A stretch of DNA of 41,625 bases from Candidatus Thorarchaeota archaeon (GTDB taxonomy: Archaea; Asgardarchaeota; Thorarchaeia; Thorarchaeales; Thorarchaeaceae), in contig JAUWOU010000012.1 in NCBI GenBank assembly GCA_030612005.1, positions 1 through 41,625 of the forward strand, written 5' to 3'. This document shows, piece after piece, positions 14,945 to 37,042 of the stretch. A program made the position numbers and the translations under genes. The notes below the pieces were generated by a model. That model saw only the letters and a program-made list of their open reading frames with translations. It ran no database searches and was not told where the DNA came from. How positions within the stretch are numbered: the first letter of the stretch is position 1; the number at the start of each line of letters is the position of its first letter.

Positions 14945-15241
14945 AATTGCGATGGGTAGGGCCGGGTCGTTTGGCGCGACCTGTTATCGGTAATGTCAAT
15001 AGCCGAGGCCAGTAACCTGCATCGAGAATGAACCGGAACGTCGTTGGGTCCAGCTGCAGGACGTTGACATGCGGTCTCTGGAGTCTGTCTCTGACATACC
15101 AGCATTCGTAGGTTTGCTGTGATTGTCATAAACTTCCGAACCGAGTCAGGCCCTGGCGGGAACAGCTCTAAGGAAGAGTGGTGGAGCCCCAGAGGTGGCC
15201 GCATTGAGAATTGCGCTGATCAGCCCTTCGATTACCGACAT
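14945..15241 (+). ncRNA. Signal recognition particle RNA (archaeal 7S RNA)
   Basis: 5' domain TAGGGCCGGGTCGTTTGGCGCGACCTGTTATCGGTAA...AGCCGAGGCC matches the archaeal helix 2-4 signature. Domain IV GAACCGAGTCAGGCCC-TGGC-GGGAACAGCTCTAAGG is at about 15138-15172. Ends approximate. Confidence 0.85.
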
Positions 15242-15323
15242 TCGGAATGTGGGAGCTGTCGCACCTTCTTATCGTTAACCTACAACAATGTTTAAGAGAA
15301 AAATACGGTCAGCACGTTCTCAA

Positions 15324-33736: not shown

Positions 33737-33845
33737 TGGCGGGCTCGGTGGGATTTGAACCCACGGCCAGTCCCCGAAGCAAGAGATGACTCTCCTGTTC
33801 ATCAGGTTAAAAGCCTGCTGCGCTACCTATCTGCGCCACGAGCCC
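33737..33845 (-). tRNA. tRNA-Lys(TTT) with a probable non-canonical intron near the anticodon-stem/variable boundary; encoded CCA
   Basis: Minus strand GGGCTCG-TG-GCGC-AGATAGGTA-GCGC-A-GCAGG-CTTTTAA-CCTG-[~32-nt insertion]-TGGCC-GTGGG-TTCAAAT-CCCAC-CGAGCCC-G-CCA. Confidence 0.87.
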
Positions 33846-34201
33846 CTGATGTCCAGACGGATTCTAGTCTACGACCGTCAATGACCTCTTACATGACAAA
33901 AAGTCCCATGATTGTTACTTGTAGTCATGCATGAGTGGGAAGCAGTTCTGTCTGAGCAGAGGACGGGAATTCTGTAGCCATAAAAGGATTTGGATAAAAC
34001 AACTAAATGGCATTACATCTAAGGGGGTTTGGCTGTGTGAGCCAGTCTATAGTATGCTTTAGAAGCTAATAAGTTACTCTATTTTCCAGACGTATTACCC
34101 AGGATACCTTTCCATATGCAAATTGTAATCAGGTAGATAACTTTGTCATCAATACCGAACGACAACTTTAATAGAAAAACGGATTTGCAGCAGTCAATCA
34201 C

Positions 34202-34368
34202 GCCCCTGTAGTGTAGTCCGGTTAGCATTCAAGACTGTCAATCCAAGCGGTTGACGCTTGAAGCAGACCTCTTGAGACTCCCTCATTAGTGAGGGAGGCG
34301 GAGACAGATCCGGGTTCAAAAGAGATTCATGATTTCCATAATCTCTGAATATCCCGGCGGGGGCGCCA
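34202..34368 (+). tRNA. tRNA-Asp(GTC) with three predicted introns and encoded CCA
   Basis: Acceptor GCCCCTG/CGGGGGC + G + CCA; D-stem GTGT/GCAT; anticodon stem CAAGA/TCTTG, loop CTGTCA|C; T-arm CCGGG-TTCAAA|T-CCCGG. Intron 1 is 34241-34268 (37/38; BHB central CTGT/GCAG). Intron 2 is about 34276-34306 (variable region; hairpin CTCCCTCA-TTAG-TGAGGGAG). Intron 3 is 34321-34351 (T-loop; central TTCA/TGAA, inner GAGATT/AATCTC). Predicted mature length about 77 nt. Confidence 0.9.
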
Positions 34369-34424: not shown

Positions 34425-34856
34425 CTATACAGAATCAATCTCTCTGATCTTTTCTCTTACAATATTAGGAAGGGTTGTTTTCTTTGAATTCTTGTAATCA
34501 TATATCATCAATTTCGATTCTCCGAGAGCAGCTATCCCCTTGGATTTACTTACGATGATATATTCCGTAATGAAATGGGTTGGTTCAATAGAGGTTACAC
34601 GAGCACCTACAGTTACTGTATCAGGGTAAAACAGAGGCTTAATGAATTTACAAGAAGTAGTAGCTAAGATTGGACCAATAGCATCATTCTCCATGGCTTC
34701 AATGAATCCTACTTCCTCAAAGTACTTTATACGAGCGGTTTCAAAATATTTGAAGAATTTAGTGTTGTTTACATGTTTTAAAGAGTCCATGTCTCCCCAA
34801 GCAACGGGAATGTCGACTGTAATGTTGAAATCGTCTAATGATGTCATTGATAACAC
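34425..34856 (-). CDS. 4HBT-family acyl-CoA thioesterase (YbgC/FadM-like)
   Basis: IPVAWGDMDSLKHVNNTKFFKYFETARIKYFEEVGF is a typical hot-dog thioesterase motif. Confidence 0.85.
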   Translation of the reverse strand: MLSMTSLDDFNITVDIPVAWGDMDSLKHVNNTKFFKYFETARIKYFEEVGFIEAMENDAIGPILATTSCKFIKPLFYPDTVTVGARVTSIEPTHFITEYIIVSKSKGIAALGESKLMIYDYKNSKKTTLPNIVREKIREIDSV

Positions 34857-34945
34857 TTCTACAATTTAGAGATGAGTCACCTACATCAGATAAAAATGAT
34901 GTGTCAGGTATGCTACAACTTCAGTACCTATTCATTTTCAGGATT

Positions 34946-34973
34946 CTCCGGGTTCAAATCCCGGCGGGGGCGC
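34946..34973 (+). pseudogene. Detached tRNA-Asp 3' fragment (T-arm + acceptor + CCA) lacking the T-loop intron; att-like or split-tRNA 3' part
   Basis: CCGGGTTCAAATCCCGGCGGGGGCGCCA matches the spliced 3' end of tRNA-Asp. No 5' part is adjacent. The following CTTTTCTCT resembles the tRNA-Asp trailer TCTTTCTCT. Confidence 0.85.
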
Positions 34974-35006
34974 CACTTTTCTCTATACCAGACTCAATTT
35001 CTGCAT

Positions 35007-35867
35007 CTATTCATTTTCAGGTTTCATACTATCCCAGAAGCTCTTTGGAGGGTGCCGTAAGTCCCAGTCAACCCGAGTATCATGTAGAACACGAGAACAA
35101 TATGGATCGCCTTGAGCAATAGTATGTTCCATTGTTAGGACTATACTATCGTGATAATTCCTAAACTTTTCATAATCTCCATAACAGCAAACATAGTATT
35201 TTAGCTCGGTATCGGGCAGGTCTTCTCCTATGGCATTAAAAAAGACACAGGTATCGTTCCGAAAAGCATATTTTCCATCCCCAATCAATGTGTGAACAAT
35301 TTCCCAGTCGGATGGTTCTTCTTTGGGTTCTATCGCCTTTTCATAAATAATTTTCACACTGTCTACTGTCTTTCTTTTTGGATCCCTGTTTTCAAGTGTA
35401 TGGTGAGTTACAAATTTCTTGTACAAATCTATTCCATCTGTTCGATTAAGAGTTTCAGTCAAAACTAGTAGGTTGGAATAATTGTGATGTGACCAAGATC
35501 TGAAGTAGTTCCTATTCACAACCTTGGTTTTCCCTAGTTTATCTTCAGCTGGTAATCGAAGTATCTGTAGAATGTAGTTCAGAACAAGTCTTGTGAGTTC
35601 CAAATGCTCTTTCATATGTGGATTCTCAGATACGAGTTCGTCTAGGTCAGGTGGATTTGCTTTCCTTCGCTCATCCTCCAGTAGACCCTGGTATTTTTCT
35701 ATGAGCTTGTTTATATATTCTGGAAAAATGTCTGGATTTTGTTCTCTGATGAATCCGAGGAAGTAGTTCATTCGTTTCAATCGATTCTGTGCTTCCTCAA
35801 GAGAATTAATCTCGACTGAACGCTCGAGGGTATCTTGTCTATATTTTCCAGTTTTAACAAATTTCAT
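35007..35867 (-). CDS. Hypothetical protein, possibly ATC-hydrolase-like (L-2-amino-thiazoline-4-carboxylic acid hydrolase) C-terminal domain
   Basis: LKYYVCCYGDYEKFRNYHDSIVLTMEHTIAQGDPYCSRVLH resembles the conserved C-terminal GD/C pattern of that family; assignment tentative. Confidence 0.4.
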   Translation of the reverse strand: MKFVKTGKYRQDTLERSVEINSLEEAQNRLKRMNYFLGFIREQNPDIFPEYINKLIEKYQGLLEDERRKANPPDLDELVSENPHMKEHLELTRLVLNYILQILRLPAEDKLGKTKVVNRNYFRSWSHHNYSNLLVLTETLNRTDGIDLYKKFVTHHTLENRDPKRKTVDSVKIIYEKAIEPKEEPSDWEIVHTLIGDGKYAFRNDTCVFFNAIGEDLPDTELKYYVCCYGDYEKFRNYHDSIVLTMEHTIAQGDPYCSRVLHDTRVDWDLRHPPKSFWDSMKPENE

Positions 35868-36040: not shown

Positions 36041-37042
36041 ATGACAGAATTCCTAGATTCATGTTATGATGTAATTAAGATACAAGAGAGATCTATTGCA
36101 CACACTATCAAATCCGTTGATTTGAAGAATATATCAGATATTACAGCAAAACAACGAATTGTATTGATAGGTGCAGGAGATTCATACGCTGTATCCGAAT
36201 ATGGAAAATGGGTATTCCGTTCTATTGGATTGAATGCAATCTCATTATCACCGCCTGAAATTATGCATTTTCCACTGGATTCTGAAACAGTAGTAATTGG
36301 AGTTACAGCATCTGGTAGAAGCCTATCTACACTTGATGCGCTCCAAAAAGCTAAAGATGAAGGTGCTAAAACTATTGTATTGACTGATAATTCAGATGGA
36401 AAAGCATCAGAAGAAACATCCAATCTGTGGGTAACTAAATCTGATGTAGATTCGTACAATGTTAGTCCGGCTTCACCAACTACAACTGCAATGGCATATC
36501 TACTTGCTATTGCTTCTGAATTAGAAAGTAAACTGCAGACAGACCTTCAAAATGATCTCAAACAACTCACAAAGATAGGAAAAGACATGGTCAAATGGGC
36601 AGAACATGAAGGCACAATCATTGCCAAGCTTGTAACTCCTGGACCACCTCTATACATGATCTCAGACGGTCCAAATCATGTCGCGGCGCAGATTGGAATG
36701 ATGAAATTCAACGAGTTTGCGGTTGTCAAAGGGTTTGCAGCCTTACGAGAAGATTTCTGTCATCATCAGAACCTATCCATAAATGATGGAGATCAAGCCT
36801 TGCTTATCTCAGGAAAAGATGAGTCTGATGATGAAAGGTATATGAAAGTATTAACAGAAGTTCTGAATATGCAAGCTCATCATATTCATGTTCCTGAAGA
36901 ATTCGGTTTCAAGACTGCACTTGCACAAACAATACCGAATACTATAGCTCTCCAGATGGGAGCGCATTTTACCGTACGTAGATACAATCCAAATATGGAA
37001 TGGTTTAGGATGCCTCATGCAAAAGCATTCAGAATATATTAA
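36041..37042 (+). CDS. SIS-domain sugar isomerase-like protein
   Basis: IVLIGAGDSYAVSEYGKWVFRSIG; VVIGVTASGRSLSTLDALQKAKDEGAKTIVLTDN. Confidence 0.8.
   Translation: MTEFLDSCYDVIKIQERSIAHTIKSVDLKNISDITAKQRIVLIGAGDSYAVSEYGKWVFRSIGLNAISLSPPEIMHFPLDSETVVIGVTASGRSLSTLDALQKAKDEGAKTIVLTDNSDGKASEETSNLWVTKSDVDSYNVSPASPTTTAMAYLLAIASELESKLQTDLQNDLKQLTKIGKDMVKWAEHEGTIIAKLVTPGPPLYMISDGPNHVAAQIGMMKFNEFAVVKGFAALREDFCHHQNLSINDGDQALLISGKDESDDERYMKVLTEVLNMQAHHIHVPEEFGFKTALAQTIPNTIALQMGAHFTVRRYNPNMEWFRMPHAKAFRIY

Follow-up and report, generated by a model that had tools for sequence, protein, structure and literature searches.

A tRNA-Asp(GTC) gene with three BHB introns in a Thorarchaeota genome and the possible origin of its introns by integration

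The stretch of DNA analyzed here (referred to as the window; 41,625 nucleotides) carries at 34202-34368 on its forward strand a tRNA-Asp(GTC) gene with an encoded CCA and three interruptions. ARAGORN does not detect the gene, nor does the tRNA model of Rfam at the gathering cut-off. The gene was examined with a BHB-aware parser written for this analysis, which allows zero to three introns without constraint on their placement. In archaeal BHB geometry, the 4 nt that precede the first two bulged exon bases pair with the 4 intron nt that precede the second bulge. A perfect tRNA-Asp(GTC) was obtained only when 34241-34268, 34275-34305, and 34321-34351 were taken out. This top solution has introns of 28 nt (37/38), 31 nt (43/44), and 31 nt (59/60), and their removal leaves a mature tRNA of 77 nt, GCCCCTGTAGTGTAGTCCGGTTAGCATTCAAGACTGTCACTCTTGAGATCCGGGTTCAAATCCCGGCGGGGGCGCCA. 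The gene and its upstream element are composed as follows.

34167..34174, + strand: TATA-like element TTTAATAG inside the motif GACAACTTTAATAGAAAA, about 30 nt upstream of tRNA-Asp
34202..34240, + strand: exon 1, tRNA-Asp positions 1-37, anticodon GTC at 34237-34239
34241..34268, + strand: intron 1, canonical position 37/38, strict hBHBh' motif, H CTGT:GCAG, outer helix 5/5
34269..34274, + strand: exon 2, CTCTTG, positions 38-43, 6 nt; intronless relatives have CTGTCACTCTTGAGAC at the same spot
34275..34305, + strand: intron 2, position 43/44, relaxed HBh' motif, H CTCT (38-41):GGAG, hairpin CTCCCTCA/TGAGGGAG
34306..34320, + strand: exon 3, AGATCCGGGTTCAAA, variable region to position 59, from the parse
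34321..34351, + strand: intron 3, T-loop position 59/60, strict hBHBh' motif, H TTCA:TGAA with four Watson-Crick pairs
34352..34368, + strand: exon 4, position 60 to the encoded CCA, from the parse

A 4-bp central helix and 3-nt bulges at both splice sites are present in all three introns. The outer helix is the full anticodon stem in intron 1, which also has a strong inner helix, and the full T stem (5/5) in intron 3, the inner helix of which has 6 bp; intron 2 has no outer helix. When the intron interiors were shuffled, an equally good motif arose in 9, 9, and 4 of 200,000 trials for introns 1, 2, and 3, respectively, and none of 1,500 whole-gene shuffles reached the observed score. An earlier note on this DNA had proposed a three-intron tRNA-Asp(GTC) in which introns 1 and 3 have 4-bp central helices and 3-nt bulges. 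The unconstrained parse, the shuffle controls, and the mature sequence of relatives all agree with the three introns, and introns 1 and 3 are both strict hBHBh' motifs. The same note regarded intron 2, placed at about 34276-34306, as less certain; its motif proved to be clear, with shuffles as good in only 9 of 200,000 trials, and its best boundaries lie one base away. Four registers of intron 2 lead to the same mature tRNA, and BHB geometry for both the 4-bp helix and the hairpin is found in 34275-34305 alone; the register 34276-34306 was rejected, as it retains the 4-bp helix and breaks the inner helix. A split or permuted tRNA was also rejected as unlikely, the four exons being collinear and in order on the same strand. 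The positions and boundaries of three BHB introns in tRNA-Asp(GTC) are confirmed at the level of sequence.

The host is a member of the Thorarchaeota, in line with the earlier assignment to an Asgard archaeon: the RpoB gene lies 0.6 kb from tRNA-Asp, and RpoB is 97-99% identical to that of named Thorarchaeota MAGs. The genome is itself a MAG, 90.9% complete and in 271 contigs. It had been stated that an intact tRNA-Asp elsewhere in the genome would speak against the triple-intron gene; BLAST of the mature sequence detected no second full tRNA-Asp in this genome, although a copy may have been missed because only ~91% of the genome is covered. The sole matches were a 29-nt 3' piece and the T-arms of other tRNAs. 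The TATA-like motif is kept in nearly all of 12 aligned Thorarchaeota 5' flanks, the remainder of which is mostly 38-57% identical.

As for the enzymes, the genome encodes RtcB and two EndA paralogues (on contigs C77 and C8), each with both Pfam domains. The C77 protein (188 aa) has the triad Tyr, His, and Lys. Its alignment with the catalytic subunit of Aeropyrum pernix runs end to end (E value, 3.1e-44), with its loop RKPK aligned to the A. pernix EKPR (K44, P45, and a basic residue). The C8 protein (212 aa) is without the catalytic His. Two EndA matches were found in 35 of 39 genomes from Thorarchaeota and other Asgard families, and the K-P-K loop is present in all 27 parsed Asgard catalytic EndA subunits. 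The loop and its lysine have been tied to broad substrate specificity in reviews (PMC6379350, PMC12397907), the main texts of which make no mention of Asgard archaea, and we found no report of a conserved loop in Asgard EndA in the open-access literature searched. The pair of proteins resembles the (alpha-beta)2 EndA with the Crenarchaea-specific loop of A. pernix (PMC6379350, PMC12397907) in the K44-P45-R/K46 residues, in the end-to-end alignment, and in the separate subunit that lacks the catalytic His; it differs in that the host here is an Asgard archaeon and that assembly and specificity here are predicted from sequence. We infer that the two proteins would assemble into a heterotetramer. 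The presence of a catalytic EndA with the loop lysine and of a second EndA copy is consistent with the broad-specificity endonuclease that the earlier note had predicted, and the EndA architecture to which it had pointed as a check is that of two paralogues, one catalytic and one without the catalytic His. That Asgard archaea conserve an EndA loop which was named "Crenarchaea-specific" and associated with intron diversity is relevant to the ancestry of the eukaryotic splicing endonuclease.

In the mechanism that we propose, a heteromeric EndA with the broad-specificity loop would cut the transcript at each of the three BHB motifs, and RtcB would join the exons. The bases of exon 2 belong both to the outer helix of the intron 1 motif and to the central helix of the intron 2 motif. 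As these 6 nt are shared, the two motifs cannot form together, and their mutual exclusion suggests that the introns are removed in order: intron 2 would probably leave before intron 1, letting the full intron 1 motif form. The same layout of exon 2 between introns 1 and 2 is found in two related loci, L019 and L035.

Many Thorarchaeota relatives retain tRNA-Asp at the same place, and among 24 related genomes there are seven intron states of this gene. The states of the relatives are as follows, with loci given by label.

No introns: L020, L031, L039, L040
37/38 intron alone: L015, L017, L018, L023-L026, L029, L030, L041, L045
D-loop intron alone: L032, L044
D-loop and 37/38 introns: L013, L014, L016, L021
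37/38 and 43/44 introns: L019
37/38, 43/44, and 53/54 introns: L035 (record released as chromosome)

For L013, L014, L025, L029, and L044, where the strict parser failed or shifted, states were assigned by alignment with relatives, and the motifs seem to be relaxed. The inferred mature tRNA of the window is identical letter for letter to that of L021, despite the different intron set, and is near-identical to that of the intronless L020. The 43/44 intron is also found in L019, L035, and a partial copy of the gene in L021, with different helix letters and the pairing kept. The T-arm introns lie at 59/60 in the window and at 53/54 in L035, and therefore most likely arose independently. In an RpoB tree, the window groups with L013 and L014 (100/99 support), both of which lack introns 2 and 3. 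On this tree (24 Thorarchaeota and one outgroup row with its own label), the intron set at the locus has undergone at least 12 changes.

Across the phylum, the 59/60 pattern with the TTCA:TGAA helix is enriched over a reversed control, with hand tallies of 62 versus 5 in family f9, 30 versus 0 in family f27, and 40 versus 12 in the window's own family, f1. The view that T-loop introns belong mainly to Thermoproteales does not fit with 59/60 motifs that are widespread in this phylum, and the corresponding view of multi-intron tRNAs is superseded by those with introns at non-canonical positions published for Asgard archaea (PMC11291895). The exact sequence of intron 3 was found, among the loci fetched, at no locus but this one. 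A second match to the T-loop pattern in this genome, on contig C64, lacks a matching hairpin on visual inspection and probably arose by chance.

The region downstream of tRNA-Asp contains the following features, before a conserved SIS-domain gene at 36041.

34425..34856, - strand: thioesterase gene (4HBT_2; Pfam, 3.6e-23), candidate cargo between tRNA-Asp and the 3' fragment
34947..34975, + strand: copy of the tRNA-Asp 3' end (T48-A76, 29 nt), intron-free, att-like, 100% identical to residues 49-77 of the 77-nt mature sequence
35007..35867, - strand: ATC_hydrolase-like gene, second variable insert

The 3' fragment is thus situated 0.6 kb downstream of the gene. Homologues of the thioesterase adjoin tRNA-Asp in L020 and L035 too, and the ATC_hydrolase-like gene is absent at this place in the other Thorarchaeota loci checked. 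The interval from tRNA-Asp to the SIS gene ranges in relatives from ~60 bp to several kb and differs in gene content. Partial tRNA-Asp copies are present in L014, L019, L021, and L035. In L014 and L019 alike, one such copy precedes the SIS gene by ~70 bp, a distance similar to that of the intact tRNA in L039. One partial copy in L021 still has 37/38 and 43/44 introns; those in L035 have none. The 5' flank of tRNA-Asp in the window is 86-87% identical to those of the sisters L013 and L014. Intron 1, in contrast, shares 93% identity with its counterpart in L017, L018, and L019 and only 67-70% with those of the sisters. The ancestries of the 5' flank and of intron 1 therefore disagree, and these comparisons suggest a mosaic gene that combines the native 5' flank with the intron 1 of another lineage and has a breakpoint inside it.

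We consider it most likely that the gene gained its current intron set recently and by integration, a route deduced from the arrangement just described. DNA integrating at tRNA-Asp would have exchanged the gene, starting at about the anticodon loop, for an intron-bearing copy and would have left the intron-free 3' fragment at 34947-34975. A comparable exchange has been proposed for Caldiarchaeum tRNA-Thr(GGU), where an integrating element is thought to have swapped the tRNA end for an intron-bearing one (PMC3293823). In both cases close genomes differ in introns at one locus, and a tRNA fragment and cargo adjoin the gene. They differ in that Caldiarchaeum has a 5' fragment and a nearby recombinase, whereas the Thorarchaeota locus has a 3' fragment, no nearby integrase, and three introns. 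Of the features expected from the Caldiarchaeum model, a tRNA fragment that flanks inserted DNA beside the changed tRNA is found at 34947-34975 and in L014, L019, L021, and L035. A recombinase gene in the insert is not; the only genes there are those for the thioesterase and the ATC_hydrolase-like protein, and the three integrase matches in the genome are all on other contigs. By analogy, the turnover and the fragments at tRNA-Asp appear to fit the integration model. One possibility, which we put forward tentatively, is that small inserts, mostly of a single gene and mobilized in trans, dock repeatedly at Thorarchaeota tRNA-Asp. Each docking could exchange the 3' portion of the tRNA together with its intron set, so that tRNA introns would be spread by integration and, by then disrupting the attachment sequence, would lock in the cargo.

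Several points argue against integration. The mosaic argument hangs on one 28-nt intron, one-gene inserts are small for integrative elements, and an old polymorphism could be the source of the two intron 1 types. Introns 2 and 3 of a genuine triple-intron tRNA may instead have been gained singly and in place, by intron transposition or reverse splicing, with no relation to the neighboring tRNA fragment. Such a history would account for intron positions that vary independently in relatives, with at least 12 changes, and for T-arm introns that lie at 59/60 in one genome and at 53/54 in another, and intron transposition between tRNAs has been described for Thermoproteales (cited in PMC3218864). 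It sits less well with the different ancestries of the intron 1 type and the 5' flank, with an intron 3 the exact sequence of which occurs, among the loci fetched, at this locus only, and with the tRNA-Asp fragments that adjoin the gene in several relatives, and we consider it rather unlikely.

Two further explanations were considered. The incompleteness of the genome (~91% complete, 271 contigs) would allow a decaying pseudogene with insertions, the working tRNA-Asp being located in the missing part; this is highly improbable given exons that are intact and identical to those of a relative, BHB geometry in every insert, a conserved promoter element, and the lack of a further full match to tRNA-Asp in this genome. 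It would be just as surprising if different Thorarchaeota had been fused at a repeated tRNA sequence during assembly or binning. The MAG is fragmented and tRNA fragments are repeats able to confuse assembly, but both sides match the same sister species (L013; 94.7% upstream and 91% downstream), and L035, released as a chromosome, has an independent triple-intron tRNA-Asp. We therefore regard tRNA-Asp(GTC) as probably a functional single-copy gene that would be spliced by a heteromeric EndA and RtcB and whose intron set appears to have been acquired recently by integration.

Multi-intron tRNAs of Asgard archaea have already been published, and L035 is a second Thorarchaeota locus with a triple-intron tRNA-Asp of its own. 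Introns interrupt 92-95% of the tRNA genes of Atabeyarchaeia and Freyarchaeia, and more than half of the genes contain several (2024; PMC11291895). Those genes are likewise from Asgard archaea, with introns at non-canonical positions and often several per gene, but they belong to other classes; here, a Thorarchaeota locus was compared over 24 genomes and the splicing enzyme was examined. The multi-intron tRNAs of Pyrobaculum and Thermofilum (Thermoproteales) are similar in having BHB introns, up to three per gene, and the permuted tRNAs of Thermofilum have a T-loop join also at 59/60, according to PMC3218864 and the work cited there; they differ in phylum, as the host here is not a crenarchaeon. 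In the open-access literature searched, we found no report of a tRNA locus where introns turn over rapidly and in apparent connection with integration, and a single population-level precedent for the route by which archaeal tRNA genes gain introns. With 24 genomes, seven intron states, fragments of former tRNAs, and a mosaic gene, the tRNA-Asp locus makes the integration model directly testable.

Further observations were made on tRNA fragments and inserts. A 15-bp direct repeat, CTATTCATTTTCAGG, flanks the tRNA-Asp fragment (34928-35020), its right copy being the end of the ATC_hydrolase-like gene. In L020 (3036-5341), the same thioesterase gene is one step farther from tRNA-Asp: a degenerate tRNA fragment and a newer gene lie in between, as would be seen if inserts accumulated beside the tRNA. 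On the 8.7-kb contig C10 (L131), the 3' end of a tRNA-Ser/Leu-like gene occurs several times, at distances of a few hundred to a few thousand bases, and one such 3' end with its 140-bp upstream sequence is found again at the end of C189 (L132); this arrangement may represent an array of small inserts with tRNA fragments at their borders.

Several other tRNA genes of this genome have introns in a partial inventory (L109, L119, L120, L123, L125, L128, and L130). Introns are found at 43/44 in tRNA-Leu(CAG) and tRNA-Leu(GAG), at 37/38 in tRNA-Pro(TGG), at 22/23 in tRNA-Thr(TGT), and in the T-loop at 58/59 in tRNA-Thr(CGT); tRNA-Tyr(GTA) and a tRNA with anticodon TCT give two-intron parses (D-loop and 37/38). 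Upstream of rpoB, tRNA-Lys(TTT) (33740-33845, - strand) also has a variable-region intron of ~31-32 nt, and in several Thorarchaeota relatives this gene is present and lacks the intron. The window also contains an archaeal SRP RNA gene at 14950-15261 on the + strand (Rfam, 104 bits).
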